64,000 nt of DNA from Larkinella terrae (GTDB lineage: Bacteria; Bacteroidota; Bacteroidia; Cytophagales; Spirosomataceae), in contig NZ_WJXZ01000011.1 of the NCBI RefSeq assembly GCF_009668025.1, positions 1-64,000 on the forward strand. The letters are read 5' to 3'. Positions within the stretch are counted from its first letter, which is position 1. Each line of letters begins with the position of its first letter. The notes under the pieces are model-generated. The model did not search any database. It saw nothing but the letters and a program-made list of their open reading frames with translations, and was not told the origin of the DNA. Made by a program: the position numbers and the translations under genes. Shown here piece after piece: positions 6,814 through 60,915 of the stretch.

Positions 6814-6880
6814 ACACTCCTTATTAAAAATGAAAATTAACCGAAATGGGCGAATGCACAAAATAAACGAAGCCTTTTCG

Positions 6881-6888
6881 TACTTTTG
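6881..6888 (+). promoter_or_regulatory. Bacteroidota -7 promoter box
   Basis: TACTTTTG matches TAnnTTTG exactly. It is 106 bases before the ATG at 6994, so the leader RNA would contain the inverted repeat 6899-6960. Confidence 0.5.
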
Positions 6889-6898
6889 CAACTTCGTT

Positions 6899-6960
6899 AG
6901 ACAAGAGAAGTAAGATAGGAGATAAAAGACGCTTGGTTTCTTTTCTTTGTTCTCTTGTCT
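6899..6960. repeat. Word-built inverted repeat in a 5' leader
   Basis: AGACAAGAGAA (6899-6909) pairs exactly with TTCTCTTGTCT (6950-6960). Further purine words (GATAGGAGATAAAAGAC) and their pyrimidine mirror (ATCCTCTTTTGTCTT, to 6975) extend the pattern. It lies between a promoter-like box and the ATG of the next gene, so the RNA hairpin would be in its leader. Confidence 0.65.
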
Positions 6961-6993
6961 ATCCTCTTTTGTCTTAAAAGTTTATCTATTTCA

Positions 6994-7563
6994 ATGATTA
7001 TTAAAACCAAAAAATACGCACTCGACCAGAAAACCTACATCAGTCTGGCGATGCGTAGCTGGGTCAAACACAATTGGTACTGGGGCTTCGTTCCGCTGGG
7101 GCTTATTTTTATCAATGCCATTCTGAACATTACGGGCGTTTATCCGAACTGGTGGATTTACCTCGTCATTGTGCTGCTCACCATTCTGTACGTGCTGTTC
7201 TGGGCGGTGCAGTTTACGGGTATCACGCAGATGGAACAGACCAAAGCGCTGTTTCAGAAATACGTTTACGAAATCGACAGCCGCCAGATCATGCTCAAAC
7301 TGAACGCCCGCGAAGGCGGTATTTTGAAGTGGGACCAGATCCGGAGCGTTACCAAAGACAAAACCGCCTACGTCATGGTCGTTTCCAACGATCAGGCCAT
7401 GAACGGAATGAAAGTAAACTGGCTGGCGAAAATCGTGGCCAAAGGCATGAAGGATGCCCAGTTTCTGTACCTGCCGTATTCGATTTTCACGACCGAAAAC
7501 GAACTGAAGTTCATGGACACACTCCTGAAACGGAAGGGTTTTCTGAGTGAAGCCGAAAAATAG
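6994..7563 (+). CDS. YcxB-like membrane protein
   Basis: The 189-residue product starts MIIKTKKYALDQ. Two adjoining hydrophobic segments (about residues 32-52 and 58-78, around VYPNWW) are followed by a soluble part with the YcxB-like signature ...LLKLNAREGGILKWDQIRSV..., ending in ELKFMDTLLKRKGF. That pattern (a short membrane anchor, then a small beta domain) is typical of YcxB family proteins, whose role is not established. A longer in-frame start at 6955 lies inside the leader repeat and is rejected. A strong terminator follows. Confidence 0.7.
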   Translation: MIIKTKKYALDQKTYISLAMRSWVKHNWYWGFVPLGLIFINAILNITGVYPNWWIYLVIVLLTILYVLFWAVQFTGITQMEQTKALFQKYVYEIDSRQIMLKLNAREGGILKWDQIRSVTKDKTAYVMVVSNDQAMNGMKVNWLAKIVAKGMKDAQFLYLPYSIFTTENELKFMDTLLKRKGFLSEAEK

Positions 7564-7571
7564 AAGGCCAT

Positions 7572-7630
7572 AAAAAAGCGGGTAAAAGAAGAGTTGGGTC
7601 AAAACCGGTTCTTCTTTTACCCGCTTTTTT
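7572..7630. terminator. Bidirectional rho-independent terminator
   Basis: GCGGGTAAAAGAAGA (7578-7592) and TCTTCTTTTACCCGC (7610-7624) form a perfect 15-bp stem with a 17-base loop. Six A residues precede and six T residues follow, so it can end transcription from both of the convergent genes. Confidence 0.9.
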
Positions 7631-8917: not shown

Positions 8918-8995
8918 GCATGGGGCAGAGGGGTAAGGGCACAGGGTAACAAAAAGGCGTCAACTGCCCTATGCCCCTACCCCTCTGCCCCATGC
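8918..8995. repeat. Perfect 18-bp inverted repeat between purE and the LysM gene
   Basis: GCATGGGGCAGAGGGGTA (8918-8935) pairs exactly with TACCCCTCTGCCCCATGC (8978-8995). Next to the arms AGGGCAC/AGGGTAAC and CTGCCCTATGCCCC repeat the same words. The repeat ends two bases before the purE stop codon, so it occupies almost the whole spacer. Confidence 0.8.
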
Positions 8996-9487: not shown

Positions 9488-9595
9488 GTTAAGAGCTAAG
9501 CGTTAAGAATCAAGAGTTGGCTGACGCATTGTATTTAACTCGCGCCAGCCAACTCATAACTCATAACTCTTAACTCTTCATTCTTAACTCTTCAC
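9488..9595. repeat. Word-built inverted repeat between purK and purE
   Basis: The core GAGTTGGCTGACGC faces GCGCCAGCCAACTC with one mismatch. Outside it the words GTTAAGAAT, AAGAGTT and GTTATGAGTT recur on the left and as their complements on the right. It fills nearly the entire purK-purE spacer. The same word set is used at 25306-25377. Confidence 0.75.
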
Positions 9596-15806: not shown

Positions 15807-15827
15807 AGAAATGATTAAATGGGTCTT

Positions 15828-15923
15828 GAACTGGGATTACGCGGATTAAAGGATTCACTGGGATGTAAAAAAAGATTGCGGTAGCTAATCCTCTTAATCC
15901 TTTAATCCACGTAATCCCAGTTC
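15828..15923. repeat. 28-bp inverted repeat after dnaN
   Basis: The arms 15828-15855 and 15896-15923 are 28 bases each with one mismatch. They carry the words GGGATTACGCGGATTAAAGG and AATCCTTTAATCCACG. The spacer repeats fragments of the same words (CTGGGAT, TAATCC). It ends three bases from the dnaN stop. Confidence 0.85.
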
Positions 15924-15926
15924 AGA

Positions 15927-17063
15927 CTATGCGTACGTATTGAGCATCACTGGCATGACCAGCATCAGGATGTCTTCGTTTTCTTCTTTATCGGCCGGAA
16001 TGATCAGGCCGGCGCGGTTGGGGGCCGACATTTCGAACGAGAGCATTTTGGCGCTCAGGTTGTTGAGCATTTCGGTCAGGAACTTGGCGTTGAAGCCGAT
16101 TTCGAGCGGATCACCGTCGTAGTCGCAGAGTAGTTTTTCGTTGGCTTCGTTGCTGTAGTCCAGGTCTTCGGCGGAGATGGTCAGCGAGTTGGTTTTCAGC
16201 GAAAGCCGGATCTGGTGTGTCGTCCGGTTGGCGTAAATCATGATCCGCTTCAGCGAATTCAGCATATCCGTCCGGCCAATGGTCATCACGTTCGGGTTGT
16301 TGACCGGAATCGCGTTTTCGAAATCCGGAAACCGCTCATCGATTAACCGGCAGATCATCTGGGTGGAACCGGCGGGCGAACCGGCAAAGGTAAACGACGC
16401 GTTCGACTGGCTGAATTCGGCCTTCACCGGAGCCGCTTCGGGCAGCGACGCCTTCAGGAGCGTCAGGGCTTTGCGCGGAATAATCATCGACGAATTGCTC
16501 GGCGAATTAATGTCGGACCGGCGGTAGCGAATCAGCCGGTGGCCGTCGGTGGCCACAAACGTAGCGTTTTCGTCCGTCAGCTGCAGATATACCCCCGTCA
16601 TGGCCGGGCGCAGGTCGTCGGTGCTGGTGGCAAAAACCGTATTGTTGATGGCGCTCAGCAGGGCGTCCGACGAAATTTCGACCGACAGGCTCCGATTCAC
16701 CGCCGGGATTTTCGGGAAATCAATCGGGTTTTCGCCCGACAATTTATAGCGACCGTTGTCGGTCAGAATTTCCGTTCCGAACGTTTCGGTATTGACGTTG
16801 AACGTGATGGGTTGTTCGGGCAAACCGCGCAGCGTGTCCAGCAGCAGTTTGGCCGGTATGGCAATAGCTCCCTTCTCCGACGACTCCACGGCGATGTTCG
16901 TAATCATGGTCGTTTGCAGATCCGACGCCGTGACGGTCAGGACGTCATCTTCCAACTTGAACAGAAAGTTTTCCAGAATCGGCACAATCGGGTTCGTTGC
17001 CACCACACCGTTGATGGCCGAAAGTTGCTTGAGTAATACGGAGGAGGAAACGATGAATTTCAT
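15927..17063 (-). CDS. dnaN: DNA polymerase III beta clamp
   Basis: This 378-residue protein is the ring-shaped sliding clamp that tethers the replicase. Family landmarks include MKFIVSSSVLLKQLSAI at the start, TRPAM-like DDLRPAMTGVYLQL, FVATDGHRLIRYR and the C-terminal ILMLVMPVMLN. The start is set at the ATG 21 bases inside the longest frame because it matches the family N-terminus and sits 36 bases after an exact -7 promoter box. No dnaA or recF is adjacent, so this is not the classical origin cluster. gldG lies upstream on the same strand. Confidence 0.97.
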   Translation of the reverse strand: MKFIVSSSVLLKQLSAINGVVATNPIVPILENFLFKLEDDVLTVTASDLQTTMITNIAVESSEKGAIAIPAKLLLDTLRGLPEQPITFNVNTETFGTEILTDNGRYKLSGENPIDFPKIPAVNRSLSVEISSDALLSAINNTVFATSTDDLRPAMTGVYLQLTDENATFVATDGHRLIRYRRSDINSPSNSSMIIPRKALTLLKASLPEAAPVKAEFSQSNASFTFAGSPAGSTQMICRLIDERFPDFENAIPVNNPNVMTIGRTDMLNSLKRIMIYANRTTHQIRLSLKTNSLTISAEDLDYSNEANEKLLCDYDGDPLEIGFNAKFLTEMLNNLSAKMLSFEMSAPNRAGLIIPADKEENEDILMLVMPVMLNTYA

Positions 17064-17098
17064 ATGCAATATGTTTGGGGCCAATAGTCCAATGAGAA

Positions 17099-17130: not shown

Positions 17131-17233
17131 GTTATTTCGCGGAGTTTAGCGGAGAAAATTAGAGCTAAGTAGAGTTTATTAAAAAAAATCTCCGCGTATC
17201 TCTAATTTTCTCCGCTAAGCTCCGCGAAATAAC
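17131..17233. repeat. 34-bp inverted repeat between gldG and dnaN
   Basis: The arms 17131-17164 and 17200-17233 are 34 bases each with one mismatch. They are built from CGCGGAG, TAGCGGAGAAAA and TTAGAG; the loop (AGAGCTAAGTAGAG, TCTCCGCGTAT) repeats the words. It fills the gldG-dnaN spacer upstream of the dnaN promoter box. It is the clearest member of the word-built class. Confidence 0.9.
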
Positions 17234-17243
17234 TTTTTAACTC

Positions 17244-18899
17244 CTACGCGTACTTTCTCTGGCGGACGAATTGCCACAAAATACCCACAAAAGCCACCAG
17301 AACCGTTGGTCCCAGCAGATTCAGAAGCTGCCACGACAGCCGGTCTTCCCGCAGCCGGATTTTATCTAACGGCCTGATTGTCACCTGCCGGGTGCGGGCG
17401 GTGATGATGCCGTTGTCGTCCATAAGGTAATTCACCGCATTGACCACAAAATCCTTGTTGGCGAAGGTGTTTTTCGAAAACCGCTCATAGCCGAGCGGAT
17501 AGGGCGTGTTGGTGCGGTAGTTGATGTCGTTGACGAGCAGATCGCCGTCGGTGCAGACCACTATTTTTGCGGCCGCTCCCTGCGCTTTAAAGGCCGCAGC
17601 GCGCGGGTCGCCGGGCAGAATCCGGTTGGTGTAGAGCGACTGAAACCGCCCTTCCAGCAGGCAGGCAACGAGCTTGACGCCGTCGTTGTAGGTCCGCGGA
17701 TCGGGTTGCTGACGGGCTTCGTTGTAACTCACCAGCGCGGGCGCTTTCAGGATTTTGGTGTATTGCGACGTCATCAGCAGGGGCGTTTTCACAATACCCA
17801 CGGCCTGAACGGTATCGAGCGTGCTGGTAAACCGGCTGTAAATTGCGTCCAGATTGCGAACAATGGGACTTTTGCCGAAGGTATTGATCAACGGAAAAAA
17901 CCGCCAGGGCAGCATCTGAACGTTGGGTTTGTCGCCCATATCGCCGACGTTCAGCGGAATCAACGCGCAGCTCAAGTCCTTGATAATGTCGTTGTTGACC
18001 CGAACGCCCCAGCGAAAAAACAGATCGTTCAGGTTCAGGTCCAGCGGTTGGGCGTAGGTTCCTTCCCGGCCGACACTATCGATTTTCAGGCCGTCGACAA
18101 AAAACAGCGCTTTGCCGCCGTTGACCACAAACTGGTCGATTTTGTATTTATCGGCTTCCGAAAACGCGCGGTCGGGTTTGGGAACAATCAAACCGTCGAG
18201 GCCCACCAGATCACGCGAATCCTGTAGATTGATCAGCTTGATGTCGTAAAATTCCTGAAGGGTAGCCAGCAAATCCGACAGCCGGAGCGGCTCGACGTTC
18301 GTGTAGGAAACCGCCACGCCCAGCACCTTTTTCTCCCGGATCGTCAGCCGCCGGATGGCCGACGCCAGTTCGTATTCCACATTTTCAATCGACTGATTCA
18401 GTTGCTCTTCCTTTGAACTGGAGCGGTTTCCCCGCAACAATAAAACCGTCTGCTCACGGCCTTTGTAAGACACGACCGCCCACGGAAAAATCAATTGCTC
18501 GGTTCGTTGGTTACCATCGGTATTAGAAATCAGGCTGGTCGGCGAGAGCCCTTTCTGGATCAGTTGCGTTTGTAATTCAGCTCTTTTCTTCGAGTCCGGA
18601 TTGGCAGTCGGGTCAATAAACCGGTAGGTCAGATCCTGGCTGGCCCGGGCCTGAAACTCGGCCAGTGTTTCCCGAACGCTGGTTTCCAGGCGTTTGAACG
18701 CGGGAGGCAGATTCCCCGTCAGGTAAACGTTGACGTGGATGTCATCATCGAGGTTCGTCAGCAGATTTTCGGTCGCTTCCGACAGCGTATACCGGCCTTC
18801 CTGCGTCAGATCGACCCGAAAAAACAGAAAAGACGACAGCAAATTGACAGCAACCAGAACGGCCAGAACAAGCCCGAAACGAAAAACAAATGACTTCAT
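17244..18899 (-). CDS. gldG: Gliding-motility ABC transporter subunit GldG
   Basis: This 551-residue protein matches GldG. An N-terminal membrane helix (residues 5-27) is followed by DLTQEGRYTLSEATENLL, the DUF4350/GldG-type extracytoplasmic domain, and a C-terminal helix (near 525-545). The length is like that of Flavobacterium GldG. GldG works with GldA and GldF in gliding-linked transport. No gldF lies upstream: the next gene (19062) is on the other strand. A near-consensus -7 box (minus strand TACTTTCG) lies 35 bases before the ATG. Confidence 0.92.
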   Translation of the reverse strand: MKSFVFRFGLVLAVLVAVNLLSSFLFFRVDLTQEGRYTLSEATENLLTNLDDDIHVNVYLTGNLPPAFKRLETSVRETLAEFQARASQDLTYRFIDPTANPDSKKRAELQTQLIQKGLSPTSLISNTDGNQRTEQLIFPWAVVSYKGREQTVLLLRGNRSSSKEEQLNQSIENVEYELASAIRRLTIREKKVLGVAVSYTNVEPLRLSDLLATLQEFYDIKLINLQDSRDLVGLDGLIVPKPDRAFSEADKYKIDQFVVNGGKALFFVDGLKIDSVGREGTYAQPLDLNLNDLFFRWGVRVNNDIIKDLSCALIPLNVGDMGDKPNVQMLPWRFFPLINTFGKSPIVRNLDAIYSRFTSTLDTVQAVGIVKTPLLMTSQYTKILKAPALVSYNEARQQPDPRTYNDGVKLVACLLEGRFQSLYTNRILPGDPRAAAFKAQGAAAKIVVCTDGDLLVNDINYRTNTPYPLGYERFSKNTFANKDFVVNAVNYLMDDNGIITARTRQVTIRPLDKIRLREDRLSWQLLNLLGPTVLVAFVGILWQFVRQRKYA

Positions 18900-19061: not shown

Positions 19062-19607
19062 ATGAACTACCGTCACACGTTTTTCTTTCTGTTTTTGCTG
19101 GAATTGACCAGCGCACTGATCCCGGCGTTTGCCGAAACCCGCGAATTTCCGGTTCCACCGCCCGCGCCCAACCGGCTGTTCTACATTCAGCGGAGCAACA
19201 ACACCAATACCGTTATTTACGAAGCGAATGTAACCGGCAATCGGCAACTCGACGCCGACGATCCGGTGAATGTCTACTGGATTCGGTACGCCGAACGGGG
19301 CCAGCGCGAATCGCTGTCGATGTTGCAGTGGAAGATGGCCTACGGCTACAAACACAAGGCGGTGAACCGCAGCGAGAACCGTTTTGAGATTTACCTGAAT
19401 GCGTTCAAAAAACGCACGATCTGGGTCGATTTTCAGCAGGGCAAACCGATGGCCTTAACCACCATCAACGGCCGGAAAGCCTGTTTGCAGAAGGTGTTTG
19501 TGCAGATTGAACCCGGTTCCGGCCTGATTCCAAAGGTTCTGTACGTCGAACTGTTTGGCATCGACCCCGTTGCGGGCGTACCGGTTTACGAACGGATGCT
19601 GGTGTAA
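19062..19607 (+). CDS. DUF4833 secreted protein
   Basis: This 181-residue protein has a signal peptide (residues 1-24, ending AFAE) and one DUF4833 domain: LFYIQRSNNTNTVIYEANV, DPVNVYWIRY, KMAYGYKHKAV and FVQIEPGSGLIPKVLYVELFG. The family is small, found mainly in Bacteroidota, and has no known role. Its last 22 bases overlap the end of the convergent gene at 19586. Confidence 0.8.
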   Translation: MNYRHTFFFLFLLELTSALIPAFAETREFPVPPPAPNRLFYIQRSNNTNTVIYEANVTGNRQLDADDPVNVYWIRYAERGQRESLSMLQWKMAYGYKHKAVNRSENRFEIYLNAFKKRTIWVDFQQGKPMALTTINGRKACLQKVFVQIEPGSGLIPKVLYVELFGIDPVAGVPVYERMLV

Positions 19608-20086
19608 TTTCGGCCGGTTTGAATGCCAAACTCGTTCAGAGCGCGCGGAAAGTTTTTCCCTTCGTGCCCCGAACGGCTTAGTTTGACCAGCGCAAAACGC
19701 TGGAGCACATCGAACTGAATCCACTGCCGGATGGTCAGCGGGACGAAATTGAATTCGGCGGCTTTGTGCTGCACCTCGTCCGGGACCTCCTCCAGCGCAT
19801 CCCAACTGGCGTCGACCGGCGGTAATTCACTGACGGTTTTTCCGCAGCGCTCGGCCACGAGCTGAATCAAAAACCGGCGATACCGCGCAATCTCCGTTTC
19901 CGTAAAACACGGCCGGGTGGCTAGTTCCCGCTTTTCCTCAACTGTCAATTTCACCCATTCGGGGAGTTTCAGTTTGATCAGGCACGTATCCAGTTTATAG
20001 CGAACAATCATCGGAATGCAGCGGAACGTGTCGACAAAGTCGTTCTCAAAATCAAAATAAACGGTTTCGAGTGCGTGCGGTTTCAT
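19586..20086 (-). CDS. Nitrate-reductase-associated protein
   Basis: This 166-residue protein matches the nitrate reductase associated protein family, seen beside assimilatory nitrate reductases in cyanobacteria and Bacteroidota. Landmarks are FRCIPMIVRYKLDTCLIKLKLPEWVKL and EFNFVPLTIRQWIQFDVLQRFALVKLSRSGHEGKNF. The start MKPHALE follows the rubredoxin gene by 35 bases; the far longer frame upstream lies inside that gene and is a shadow. It closes the minus-strand nitrate operon. The molecular role is not known. Confidence 0.9.
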   Translation of the reverse strand: MKPHALETVYFDFENDFVDTFRCIPMIVRYKLDTCLIKLKLPEWVKLTVEEKRELATRPCFTETEIARYRRFLIQLVAERCGKTVSELPPVDASWDALEEVPDEVQHKAAEFNFVPLTIRQWIQFDVLQRFALVKLSRSGHEGKNFPRALNEFGIQTGRNYTSIRS

Positions 20087-21585: not shown

Positions 21586-21596
21586 AAGCTTTCGAA

Positions 21597-21688
21597 ATGA
21601 AAAATTAACAATGAATAATGAAGGGATTAAACCGGGCAAAACGCATCACAGATCTTTCATTGTTCATTTTTCATTGTTCATTAACTAA
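21597..21688. repeat. Word-built repeat between the nitrate reductase and rubredoxin genes
   Basis: AATGAAAAATTAACAATGAATAATGAA on the left (21597-21623) is mirrored by copies of TTCATTGTTCAT on the right (to 21685). The match is imperfect but both sides consist of the words AATGAA and AACAATGA. It overlaps the last bases of the nitrate reductase gene at 21671. Confidence 0.6.
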
Positions 21689-25305: not shown

Positions 25306-25377
25306 GAGTTAAGAATTAAGAGTTATTTTTCAGGGTGCTTTTTTAACTCTTCACTTATAACTCTTTATTCTTAACTC
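25306..25377. repeat. 21-bp inverted repeat between the transporter and nitrate reductase genes
   Basis: The arms 25306-25326 and 25357-25377 have one mismatch and are made of GAGTTAAGAAT and AAGAGTTAT words, the set used at 9488-9595. It fills the spacer of the two minus-strand genes. Confidence 0.8.
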
Positions 25378-28504: not shown

Positions 28505-28548
28505 GCCGATCCAAAGGTGCCCCCACACCGGATCGGCTTTTTTGTTTT
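28505..28548 (+). terminator. Strong hairpin plus T-run on the plus strand
   Basis: GCCGATCC (28505-28512) pairs with GGATCGGC (28530-28537), inner bases AGGTG/CACC extend the stem, and TTTTTTGTTTT follows. It has the form of a rho-independent terminator on plus, but no plus-strand protein gene lies upstream of it, so it could end a small RNA. Confidence 0.6.
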
Positions 28549-28638
28549 GCGGTTTTCGGTAGTGCCGAATATCGAATATTGAATAACGAACACCGAATAA
28601 CGAAAGCAACCAACCGTGGTGCATTCACCAAAAACCGC
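28549..28638. repeat. Word-built repeat after cobA
   Basis: GCGGTTTT (28549-28556) and AAAACCGC (28631-28638) are the outer arms. Between them GAATATCGAATATTGAATAA and CGAACACCGAATAACGAA repeat the words seen at 44471-44505 and 23600-23655. It ends close to the cobA stop. Confidence 0.65.
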
Positions 28639-44434: not shown

Positions 44435-44538
44435 CGGTTTTCGGTTCACGGTGGGCTGACGCATTCCTGTTTAATATCGAATAACGAATATTGAACAGCG
44501 AACACAGAATGCGTCAGCTCACCGTGAACCGAAAACCG
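44435..44538. repeat. 32-bp inverted repeat between quinoprotein and enolase-superfamily genes
   Basis: The arms 44435-44466 and 44507-44538 are 32 bases each with one mismatch and carry CGGTTTTCGGTTCACGGTG and CTGACGCATTC. The 40-base loop holds AATATCGAATAACGAATATT. After the right arm further ACCGAA words continue to about 44560. It is the fullest relative of the repeat in the nitrate reductase gene. Confidence 0.9.
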
Positions 44539-59436: not shown

Positions 59437-59453
59437 GTTGAGAGGTGATTGAA

Positions 59454-59506
59454 GATTGACCATCGACCGCCGACCATCGACGATTGACTATGGTCGATGG
59501 TCAATC
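59454..59506. repeat. Word-built inverted repeat between the porin and kdpD genes
   Basis: GATTGACCATCGAC (59454-59467) pairs exactly with GTCGATGGTCAATC (59493-59506). The loop repeats GACCATCGACG and GATTGAC. It fills the spacer. Confidence 0.8.
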
Positions 59507-59512
59507 GTCATT

Positions 59513-60625
59513 CTAGAAACTTACAGCTATTGAGGTCGTGACTGCCTGGTTGGTTCGTCGCACCGGGGTTGTTGCGGTTTCGGAAAAAACCGCATCCTTG
59601 CTGCTGAAAACCCGGTATTCAATCCGCCAGACCGCATTAGGCAAAACCGCGTAGTCGTAGTTGACGGAATAACCCCAGGTTTGAAAACCGTTCAGCGTAC
59701 CCGTGCTGATAATCACCCCGTTTTTGTCGTTGTAATATTCCGCCCGCCCCGCTACGTAGCTTTTGGGGCTGACGGCATACCGGGCAATCACCACCGGCGA
59801 ATACCAGACGTAACTTCCACTTCCAACGCGCCTTCCTTCACTGATGAGCGGTTTTCGGTCGGCACCGAAGTCGAAGCCCAGCGTAACGCCCAACTTGCCG
59901 GTCGGATTGATGATGGCGTAGAAATTATTGAAAAACCGGGTCTGTTTCAACGAATCCGGCCGATCTGATCCCAGAAATGTACTCCAGTTAAGCGTCAGTT
60001 TTGAGCTGGGCTTGAACTGCACCTGGGTACTGAACGACGGTTTTGTATAGCCCGCCAGCCGGTTGATCCGCTGCCAGCCGTTCAAAACCGATCCCAGAAC
60101 CGTCCATTTTCCATTCGGTGCGTTGTAGGTCAGTTTGGCTCCGGCCAGGTAATACGGCGAATTTTCGGCTAACAGGCTGCGCGTCAAGGTCCAGCAATCC
60201 TTGGAAACCGCACTCTCAAACCCGATGTGGGACGTAAAAATCCCGGCCTCCAGCCACAGATCGCGGTTTTTAATCAGCTTCACGCCCGCATTGGCTTCGT
60301 AAATATTCCGCAGCAACGGCTGCTCGGCGGCATAGTTGTACTGGGCGTACGTACCCACCTGAATTGCCAGATTTGCCCGTACTCGTTCGTCGGAATAAGC
60401 CGCCTTGAGAAACGCCAGATTCACATTCACCTCGCGGTTTCGTTTGTGGTTATACAGAAAACCGGGCCGCTCCTGCGCTTTAGGCTGGCTCAGGTCCTGC
60501 GCGTAATAGACTTCGGCGTAACCGGAAAAGGTTAGTTTTGAAGCGGATGACGAATCGGTTTGTCCAAACGAATTGCGACCCAAAACCGCTATTAAAACAG
60601 CGGTAATTATTAAAACTTTCTTCAT
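59513..60625 (-). CDS. Outer-membrane beta-barrel porin of the kdp cluster
   Basis: This 370-residue protein has a signal peptide ending SFGQ and is almost all beta strands, ending in the aromatic signature VAVSF. The motif GYAEVYYAQDLSQPKAQERPGF is that of a barrel found in Bacteroidota kdp clusters. It is between kdpC and kdpD, so a role in letting potassium or small solutes through the outer membrane is plausible but not shown by the sequence. Confidence 0.82.
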   Translation of the reverse strand: MKKVLIITAVLIAVLGRNSFGQTDSSSASKLTFSGYAEVYYAQDLSQPKAQERPGFLYNHKRNREVNVNLAFLKAAYSDERVRANLAIQVGTYAQYNYAAEQPLLRNIYEANAGVKLIKNRDLWLEAGIFTSHIGFESAVSKDCWTLTRSLLAENSPYYLAGAKLTYNAPNGKWTVLGSVLNGWQRINRLAGYTKPSFSTQVQFKPSSKLTLNWSTFLGSDRPDSLKQTRFFNNFYAIINPTGKLGVTLGFDFGADRKPLISEGRRVGSGSYVWYSPVVIARYAVSPKSYVAGRAEYYNDKNGVIISTGTLNGFQTWGYSVNYDYAVLPNAVWRIEYRVFSSKDAVFSETATTPVRRTNQAVTTSIAVSF

Positions 60626-60668: not shown

Positions 60669-60915
60669 ATGTACCCACGGACCACCGGGCGACCTCGTTT
60701 AGTCCCTGAGATCCTGGCATTTTTTATGTAAACTTTAAGAGATTGTCCAAAAATCTCATCTTCTACCGTAAAGGTCCGCCCCCAACCCCCTAAAGGGGGC
60801 TTTAATCGGTGTGCTAAAGCCCCCTTTAGGGGGTTGGGGGCAAAGCGAAAGAAGGAAAATTGTAATTTTAGACAGTCTCTAAGCAAAGGCTTCACGGACT
60901 AAAGTCCGCGGGTAC
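60669..60915. repeat. Nested repeat element between kdpC and the porin gene
   Basis: Three layers can be seen. The outer ends are GTACCCACGGAC...TTAGTCCCTGA (60669-60706) and TTCACGGACTAAAGTCCGCGGGTAC (60891-60915). Next come transposon-end-like arms, AAGAGATTGTCCAAAAAT (60737-60754) and a right copy ending AGACAGTCTCT (60865-60881). The centre is a 27-bp perfect palindrome (60778-60841). No transposase gene is present. The right edge provides the stop of kdpC. Confidence 0.75.
60778..60841. repeat. Perfect 27-bp inverted repeat (CCCCCTAAAGGGGG type)
   Basis: The arms 60778-60804 and 60815-60841 are complementary at all 27 positions, with a 10-base loop. Each arm contains a smaller palindrome, CCCCCTAAAGGGGG. 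From general knowledge, C-rich phrases like this are frequent in Bacteroidota spacers. Confidence 0.9.

Follow-up and report, generated by a model that had tools for sequence, protein, structure and literature searches.

Intergenic hairpins built from tandem words in Larkinella: retention in their spacers and evidence for concerted change of both arms

Results

Hairpins of the window and their counterparts in related species

Analysis of a 64,000-nucleotide stretch of the Larkinella terrae genome (G000, 7.85 Mb; contig C3, positions 1 to 64000, referred to as the window) revealed a hairpin of GCGGAG words at 17131 to 17233, the site under which the preliminary description reports the class. 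Pfam assignments identified its neighbors as dnaN (15927 to 17084, minus strand) and an ABC_transp_aux gene (17244 to 18899, minus strand). Genes were taken from a simple dicodon caller, so start positions are approximate. The hairpin score was determined by local alignment of a spacer with its own reverse complement and was compared with dinucleotide shuffles, 1000 for each listed site of the window; ungapped arms were measured separately. The hairpin at 17131 reached a score of 122. The preliminary description had listed eleven such hairpins, and for nine of these at most one of 1000 shuffles scored as high. At 1868, 8918, 9488, 15828, 17131, 25306, 44435, and 59454, the hairpin outscored every shuffle, and at 21597 all but one; the site at 6899 was marginal (32/1000), and the site at 28549 failed (132/1000). 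Two hairpins outside the list, both with 0/1000 shuffles, were found in a convergent spacer (7572 to 7630, score 63) and at 60778 to 60841 (score 86), the latter being a REP-like CCCCTAAAGGGG hairpin of a distinct, mobile-looking class. The number of Rfam matches at the gathering score in the window was zero.

The window was compared with related genomes (G001 to G008), which we infer to belong to the genus Larkinella. Syntenic pieces were taken from G001 to G006 and G008, including 468 kb each from G002 and G008, which are separate species with a DNA identity of 94%. In about 60 to 68 kb taken from each of seven relatives, the syntenic orthologues of the window end past the gene at 19062, near window position 20000. 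In the first 20 kb of the window, orthologous spacers often carried hairpins with other words and sometimes none. In the orthologous spacer of the 17131 hairpin, ACAGAG/TCAGAG words were present in G008, and no hairpin of this kind was seen in G007. The hairpin at 1847 to 1939 (score 73), located between two M14 peptidase genes, belongs to the CTCCGC/GCGGAG family. Its spacer contains CTCCGC words in G000, G003, and G005 and CTCTGAT/CCCTGAT words in both arms in G002, G004, G006, and G008; the letters between the words are partly retained between the two versions.

The preliminary description had placed the hairpin at 6899 between divergent genes, in the leader of the gene at 6994. This GACAAGAGA-word hairpin (6898 to 6961, score 30) does lie in a divergent spacer, and a TACTTTTG box, which we take to resemble the -7 element of Bacteroidota, is located just upstream, as a leader position would require; the hairpin itself is marginal. 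Its orthologues scored 94 in G005, 56 in G004, and 45 in G008 and were low in G006 (30) and G002 (21), and a different hairpin scored best in G001 and G003. The GACAAGAGA hairpin is a possible leader element of the gene at 6994. Inspection by eye of window positions 6875 to 6990 revealed a TANNTTTG box ahead of the hairpin position in all eight species, with a strong hairpin in three.

Words also differed between species in other spacers. The sequence of the convergent-spacer hairpin at 7572 to 7630 varied widely among the eight species, with G002 and G008 alike. At 8918 to 8995 (score 57), the GGGGCAGAGGGG words of G000 correspond to GGTTTACGG/GGTTTATGG-type words in G002, G008, and G004 and to CGGTTTACCG-type words in G006, with a GGCTGACGC core; little or no hairpin was present in G005, G001, and G003. 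The hairpin at 9491 to 9578 (score 58) consists of AGTTAAG words around the core TTGGCTGACGCAT. In its spacer (8998/9584), G000, G005, and G006 share AGTTAAG words, G008 repeats AGTGAAG along both arms, and G002 has ATGATGA; the words of G004 are mixed, the array of G001 is confined to one side, and G003 has little. The core is exact in five of the eight species and differs by a single letter in G002 and G001; G003 has lost it. Downstream of dnaN, a GGGATTACGCGGATTAAAGGATT hairpin (15827 to 15924, score 59) has a counterpart of the same family in G006 and remnants by eye in G001; none was seen in G003 and G004, and the flanking genes are non-adjacent in G005, G002, and G008.

Five listed sites lie beyond the syntenic part. 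These are a AATGAAAAATTAACAATGAA hairpin (21596 to 21675, score 38), a GAGTTAAGAATTAAGAGTTAT hairpin (25306 to 25377, score 37), direct CGAATAT/CGAATAA words without a significant hairpin (28540 to 28605, score 24), a CGGTTTTCGGTTCACGGTG plus GGCTGACGC hairpin with CGAATAACGAATATTGAA words in its loop (44435 to 44538, score 94, in a cluster of six), and a GACCATCGACC-word hairpin between a KdpD-domain gene and a BBP2 gene assigned by Pfam (59447 to 59513, score 59, in a cluster of four).

Hairpins are abundant in spacers of the genome

The sample of G000 combined the window with 640 kb of contig C6, which gave 704 kb or about 9% of the genome. At a score of at least 40, which passes over the window sites 6899, 21597, 25306, and 28549, a total of 126 hairpins was detected. 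The share of spacers with a hairpin was highest between convergent genes (23 of 40), lower between co-directional genes (93 of 263), and lowest between divergent genes (10 of 54) (convergent versus divergent, p 0.0002; co-directional versus divergent, p 0.017; convergent versus co-directional, p 0.009). An inverted-repeat search by spacer type had been proposed in the preliminary description, and convergent and divergent frequencies were found to be unequal. The accompanying statement that nearly all copies lie between genes on one strand gave no rate; co-directional spacers carry many of them, yet convergent spacers are richer and divergent spacers are the poorest. In a smaller set (window and C6:1-400000), the same threshold was reached in 65/168 co-directional, 16/29 convergent, and 6/35 divergent spacers, against 6, 1, and 3 spacers, respectively, for the best of 20 shuffles. 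None of 210 mid-gene coding stretches from this set scored at least 40. The 72 co-directional hairpins with a score of at least 50 start at a median of 6 nt past the upstream stop codon and end 47 nt ahead of the called next start. The intergenic word hairpins are a real, abundant, and genome-wide class, and their arms are tandem arrays of 7- to 10-nt words.

Clustering left 16 of the 126 hairpins single and grouped the others into 15 clusters of at least three members and a number of smaller ones; some of the small clusters were mixed. The largest clusters were GCGGAG (14), AATGAAC/AATTAAC (13), the REP-like CCCCTAAAGGGG class (11), and GGTTTACGG (6), followed by ATGGTTA (5), AGTTAAG (5), TCAGAG (4), GACCATC (4), GGGCAGA (4 and 2), and GGATTACGC (3). 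The view that the words differ between copies and do not form one dispersed repeat was only partly correct: 17131 and 1868 share one cluster, and 9491, 44435, 59447, 15827, and 8918 each cluster with copies elsewhere. Used as a query against its own genome, the 17131 hairpin gave 81 matches on both strands, corresponding to at least 40 places including itself; this is a lower bound, with 40 of 77 first-look candidates scored. Most matches of this GCGGAG family are about 100 nt long. As a DNA query, the same hairpin matched in 8 of 9 genus genomes and in 1 of 50 other genomes of the family or order.

The arms of the 126 hairpins revealed a heptad period, with a self-match of 0.357 at lag 7 (z 12.4). 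Lag 14 gave z 8.9, and lag 10 gave z 7.3, the latter mainly from the GCGGAG family. In 172 hairpin-free spacers, lag 7 reached z 4.6, no higher than lags 4, 8, and 9. A universal heptad rule was rejected because 9- and 10-nt families are present. The motif GGCTGACGC was likewise rejected as a universal core, as only some families have it, and the 640 kb of C6 contain it at 10 sites between genes and at 6 within coding sequence. It links arms and loop in the AGTTAAG, GGTTTACGG, AATGAAT, and ATGGTTA families (e.g., window positions 9491 to 9578 and 44435 to 44538).

Hairpins are retained in orthologous spacers while their sequences diverge

Comparison of 215 orthologous spacers of G002 and G008 revealed a hairpin in both species in 56 cases, in one species in 31, and in neither in 128. 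The co-directional spacers had a hairpin in both in 37 cases, in one only in 14 and 5, and in neither in 85 (Fisher p 4e-17). The corresponding 89 co-directional spacers of G002 and G005 gave 22 with a hairpin in both, 7 and 2 in one only, and 58 in neither. These sequence comparisons show that the hairpin usually stays in its spacer between related Larkinella species.

The retained hairpins include terminators and REP-like elements besides word hairpins. Their spacers were less alike than hairpin-free control spacers of 50 to 250 bp. Between G002 and G008, the median identity was 0.70 for shared-hairpin spacers (n = 56) versus 0.89 for controls (n = 79), and 10/56 versus 2/79 could not be aligned above 60 shuffles. 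The values for G002 versus G005 were 0.57 for 39 shared-hairpin spacers (10 unalignable) and 0.88 for 54 hairpin-free spacers (1 unalignable). No identity gap was detected in the small set from the more distant pair G002 and G004 (0.69, n = 13, 1 unalignable, versus 0.67, n = 10, 0 unalignable). Within alignable hairpins, the arms changed faster than flank and loop in the comparison with G008 (0.103 versus 0.082) and slower in those with G005 (0.072 versus 0.093) and G004 (0.060 versus 0.137).

Apparent swaps between word families were seen between G002 and G008 at loci 60863, 45854, 384581, and 393901, and at 185143, 361149, and 419590 G008 has CTCTGA-type words and G002 has CTCTGC/CTCCGC-type words. 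Core and loop were kept at the changed loci 403810 and 367572. Locus 403810, which corresponds to window position 9491, contains GTGAAGA in G008, ATGATGA in G002, and GTTAAGA in G005. The G005 array still carries all three words side by side, which makes it look as if different words of an older mixture became fixed in the relatives.

The two arms change together

At 38 of the 56 shared hairpins, G002 and G008 could be aligned at an identity of at least 70%, giving 1265 base pairs, of which 1069 were unchanged. The remainder comprised 56 compensated double changes, 132 single changes, and 8 uncompensated double changes, where 4.45 compensated doubles would be expected from independent arms. 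Transversions made up 23 of the 56 compensated doubles. These changes came from 19 loci, and by eye 14 loci with 49 of the changes were word-type; four loci (403810, 175643, 45854, and 361149) contributed 30 of the 56, and 45854 resembles a family swap. A count with a stricter filter gave 44 compensated, 34 single, and 825 unchanged pairs with 360 pairs excluded, and the unfiltered recount supplied the figures adopted here. The comparison with G005 yielded 20 compensated (1.36 expected), 61 single, and 6 uncompensated changes among 781 pairs; that with G004, limited to 3 hairpins and 109 pairs, yielded no compensated doubles (0.11 expected). Joint change of the arms thus exceeded independent mutation with both G008 and G005, as template switching predicts.

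Template switching also predicts loop inversion between close relatives, and this was observed in 7 of 22 decided cases with G008. In sets that mix word hairpins, terminators, and REP-like elements, the loops were inverted, in the same orientation, or undecided in 7/15/34 cases with G008 (n = 56), 4/9/26 with G005 (n = 39), and 3/3/7 with G004 (n = 13). A narrower test of the loop only gave 3/7/11 (n = 21), 2/5/7 (n = 14), and 1/1/2 (n = 4), respectively. Five of the seven flipped G008 loops were word-type by eye; 394909 and 460644 were non-word, as was 258673 of the G005 set.

An 18-nt GC-rich insert was detected at the word hairpin 117014 in both arms in G002 and in one arm in G008. A second insert, in a non-word palindrome at 104878, was likewise present in both arms in G002 and in one arm in G008. 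Two further loci of G002 contain the 117014 insert: 116091 has it in each arm, and 393901 has it in a single arm. Independent insertion at two mirror-image positions is improbable, and copying of the inserts from arm to arm appears to be the simplest reading; the alternative would be loss from one arm. These results provide good evidence, from sequence comparison, that both arms change in concert.

GC-rich inserts of about 13 to 18 nt (CGCCGGGCGGCCCCG at AAC^T, GCGGTTCCCCGCCGGGAC) occupy one or both hairpin arms at several sites, namely the G006 and G005 orthologues of 17131, the G006 orthologue of 15828, 4342, 104878, 116091, 117014, and 393901 in G002, and 30971 in G008. These inserts could represent mobile repeats of very small size.

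Terminator and promoter signals near the hairpins

A T-rich 3' end (at least 10 T in 16 nt) was present in 3 of 72 co-directional hairpins of G000 with a score of at least 50 and in 1 of 90 such hairpins of G002 and G008. Canonical intrinsic terminators were therefore rejected. The numbers of G-U and A-C mismatches were 48:49 in G000 and 87:46 in three pooled relatives sharing loci.

A TACTTTTG box was found upstream of dnaN, between dnaN and the 17131 hairpin. For this hairpin, a 3'-terminal position in the ABC_transp_aux transcript is therefore more likely than inclusion in a transcript shared by both genes; many other spacers leave little room for a promoter. In stretches of at least 20 nt behind hairpins, TANNTTTG boxes were present in 7/48 cases in G000 (shuffles 4.4%), 6/34 in G002 (4.2%), and 4/27 in G008 (7.6%). 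Since hairpin-free spacers also contain them (11/107, 19/73, and 17/83 in G000, G002, and G008; shuffles 7.4 to 7.8%), the box was rejected as a marker of unit borders.

Mobile palindromes are distinct from word hairpins

The genome contains three RAYT (Y1_Tnp) genes. A link of the word hairpins with REPINs and RAYT was rejected, as the word hairpins did not flank the RAYT genes at the three loci (3.3 kb each). Loci L026 and L027 have GTCGC..GCGAC or CCCACGGTTTAAACCGTGGG palindromes that are probably REP partners, and L028 has another long palindrome.

Between G002 and G008, 26 spacers differed in hairpin state at a score of at least 50, and 21 of these were inspected. Where the other species had a clean empty site, the palindrome was of the CCCCTAAAGGGG type or of another kind (among others 46816, 149550, 258673, and 297677). 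The word-type differing loci by eye (30971, 43957, 49370, 117014, 177052, 182687, 184154, and 201283) all keep word arrays in the other species, some of them decayed or made of different words, and none of the eight provided the empty site of a MITE. Hairpins of the CCCCTAAATCCCCTAAAGGGG type (window positions 60778 to 60841; 258673 and 297677 in G002) showed clean presence or absence between species, and an AAGAATA duplication flanks the one at 258673. They appear to be a MITE-like class apart from the word hairpins.

A word hairpin in several phyla

Searching a species-level genome collection for the exact pattern of an AGTTAWG-word hairpin revealed at least 117 stretches in several phyla, with less than 0.01 expected by chance according to our own arithmetic for uniform base composition. 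Among the 80 matches listed, some of which share a genome, 56 were assigned by title to Bacteroidota (7 to Larkinella), 9 to Cyanobacteria, 6 to Acidobacteriota, 5 to Nitrospirae, and one each to Lachnospiraceae, Chloroflexi, and Calditrichaeota, with one unassigned. A control in genomes of the phylum had no power (word pattern in 1/247, the own genome; two scrambled words in 0/247). Other hairpins near the 73 non-Larkinella loci, a sample biased by its selection through the word hairpin, gave z 12.8 at lag 7 (80 arms) and z 6.7 after removal of AGTTA/AGTTG-word arms (61 arms).

Discussion

The preferred reading, to which we assign a probability of about 0.55, is that slippage among tandem words and arm-to-arm template switching homogenize each locus while the hairpin persists. 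One word variant would spread along an arm when its tandem words slip or exchange unequally. Template switching between the arms during replication would copy the variant to the other arm and could invert the loop, so that each locus would become homogeneous on its own words with the hairpin persisting. The repeat-growing process on local words envisaged in the preliminary description finds support here, as words are homogenized within a locus, in both arms, at several loci. A weaker part of the proposal is that the hairpins may be tolerated or kept on account of their position at the 3' ends of transcripts: placed behind a stop codon and ahead of whichever promoter or gene follows, they could terminate transcription or protect the RNA. 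A minority of loci with an unrelated word family would require copying from another hairpin or another route. The excess of single-sided changes (132) over compensated doubles (56) counts against the template-switch explanation, as do the concentration of 30 of these doubles in four loci, the slower change of arms than of flank and loop in two of three comparisons, and the lack of a difference with G004. The unalignable hairpins with apparent family swaps and the 9- and 10-nt families also fit it poorly.

The paired changes could instead be ordinary compensatory substitutions in hairpins that selection maintains for a role in the RNA, as terminators, as protectors of 3' ends, or as processing sites, and we hold this to be a possible, though not the favored, account. 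The start of the hairpins just behind stop codons, their lower frequency in divergent than in convergent and co-directional spacers, and their retention between species are consistent with it, and the ratio of 87 G-U to 46 A-C mismatches in the pooled relatives leaves room for selection on RNA pairing. An RNA role had also been suggested in the preliminary description, and the position fits, but T-tracts are rare and the G-U and A-C counts are flat in G000. Moreover, the 23 transverted compensated changes have no route through G-U, and loop flips and inserts in one or both arms are DNA events. Selection on RNA would account for the retention of the hairpins, not for their mode of change, and could act jointly with slippage and template switching. 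A similarly tentative explanation for word swaps is ectopic gene conversion, in which a break at an extruded hairpin is repaired from another dispersed copy. The family swaps at the retained loci 60863 and 45854 and the CTCTGA-type words of G008 at 185143, 361149, and 419590 would agree with such conversion, but retention of core and loop at 403810 and 367572 favors local change.

Spread of REPIN- or MITE-like mobile elements by RAYT or another transposase, with each word family being an element family, is unlikely. The GCGGAG family with its many places of rather uniform length, the three Y1_Tnp genes, and the clean presence or absence of the CCCCTAAAGGGG class would speak for mobility. The three RAYT loci, however, carry other palindromes and no word hairpins within about 1.5 kb per side, all eight word-type state differences retain the word array without an empty site, and the loops vary between copies of the same family by eye. 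Still more doubtful is a dedicated process that would start at a conserved loop or core (e.g., GGCTGACGC) and fill both arms outward with new 7-nt words. The locus would then keep its hairpin while the sequence is replaced, and word hairpins of this kind would recur in several phyla because they have the process, not the sequence, in common.

Slippage and template switching are each known, and we found no printed description of their combination on the scale of a genome. Among the titles and abstracts searched, with subscription papers outside the search, none described this class of word hairpins and none reported inverted repeats in Larkinella. Covariation of paired arms is commonly taken as a sign of selection on RNA structure, and replication itself may produce it here, which calls for caution in covariation-based RNA discovery in such genomes. 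The 126 hairpins in 9% of one genome, 56 of them comparable between two close relatives, form a natural set that makes hairpin persistence without selection and a bacterial preference for a 7-nt unit testable in one genus.

According to the available parts of the reports, template-switch hairpins (Monttinen and Loytynoja 2022, PMC8794818; Abraham and Hazkani-Covo 2021, PMC8604942) resemble the word hairpins in arm homogenization, multi-base compensated changes, and inversion of the spacer (loop). Those systems are RNA genes and yeast coding DNA, whereas the present ones are intergenic bacterial hairpins of tandem words with turnover at the word level. REPINs and REPs with RAYT (PMC3116915, PMC2817692, PMC3733652) are, in the accessible text, similarly dispersed intergenic palindromes of similar size; the word hairpins differ in their word arrays, in their absence near the three RAYT genes, and in that no empty sites were seen. 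Intrinsic terminators, as far as the consulted part of a survey shows (PMC13155455), also follow stop codons and are frequent in convergent spacers, but the word hairpins rarely have a T-tract and often have long loops. The same part of the survey reports arms of inverted repeats to be more conserved than spacers; here, whole hairpin spacers were less alike than hairpin-free ones, and arm sites were slower than flank and loop in two of three comparisons.

Bacterial heptanucleotide repeats share with the word hairpins the intergenic 7-nt tandem words and inverted array pairs. The accessible parts of the papers describe GGGAATC in Xanthomonas and GGGGA(C/T)T in Nostoc, with 70 cases of two heptad arrays in inverted arrangement in X. 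campestris (PMC4692102), and TAACTGA in Beggiatoaceae, Cyanobacteria, and Bacteroidetes, with 7 nt put forward as a slippage unit (PMC4679880). In these parts, one or a few words are treated without comparison of orthologous arms, whereas many families were detected here as hairpins, which the search targeted. The GGCTGACGC motif recurs in a Bacteroidales symbiont, 'Candidatus Symbiothrix' (L152), which also has the GCGTCAGCC core.
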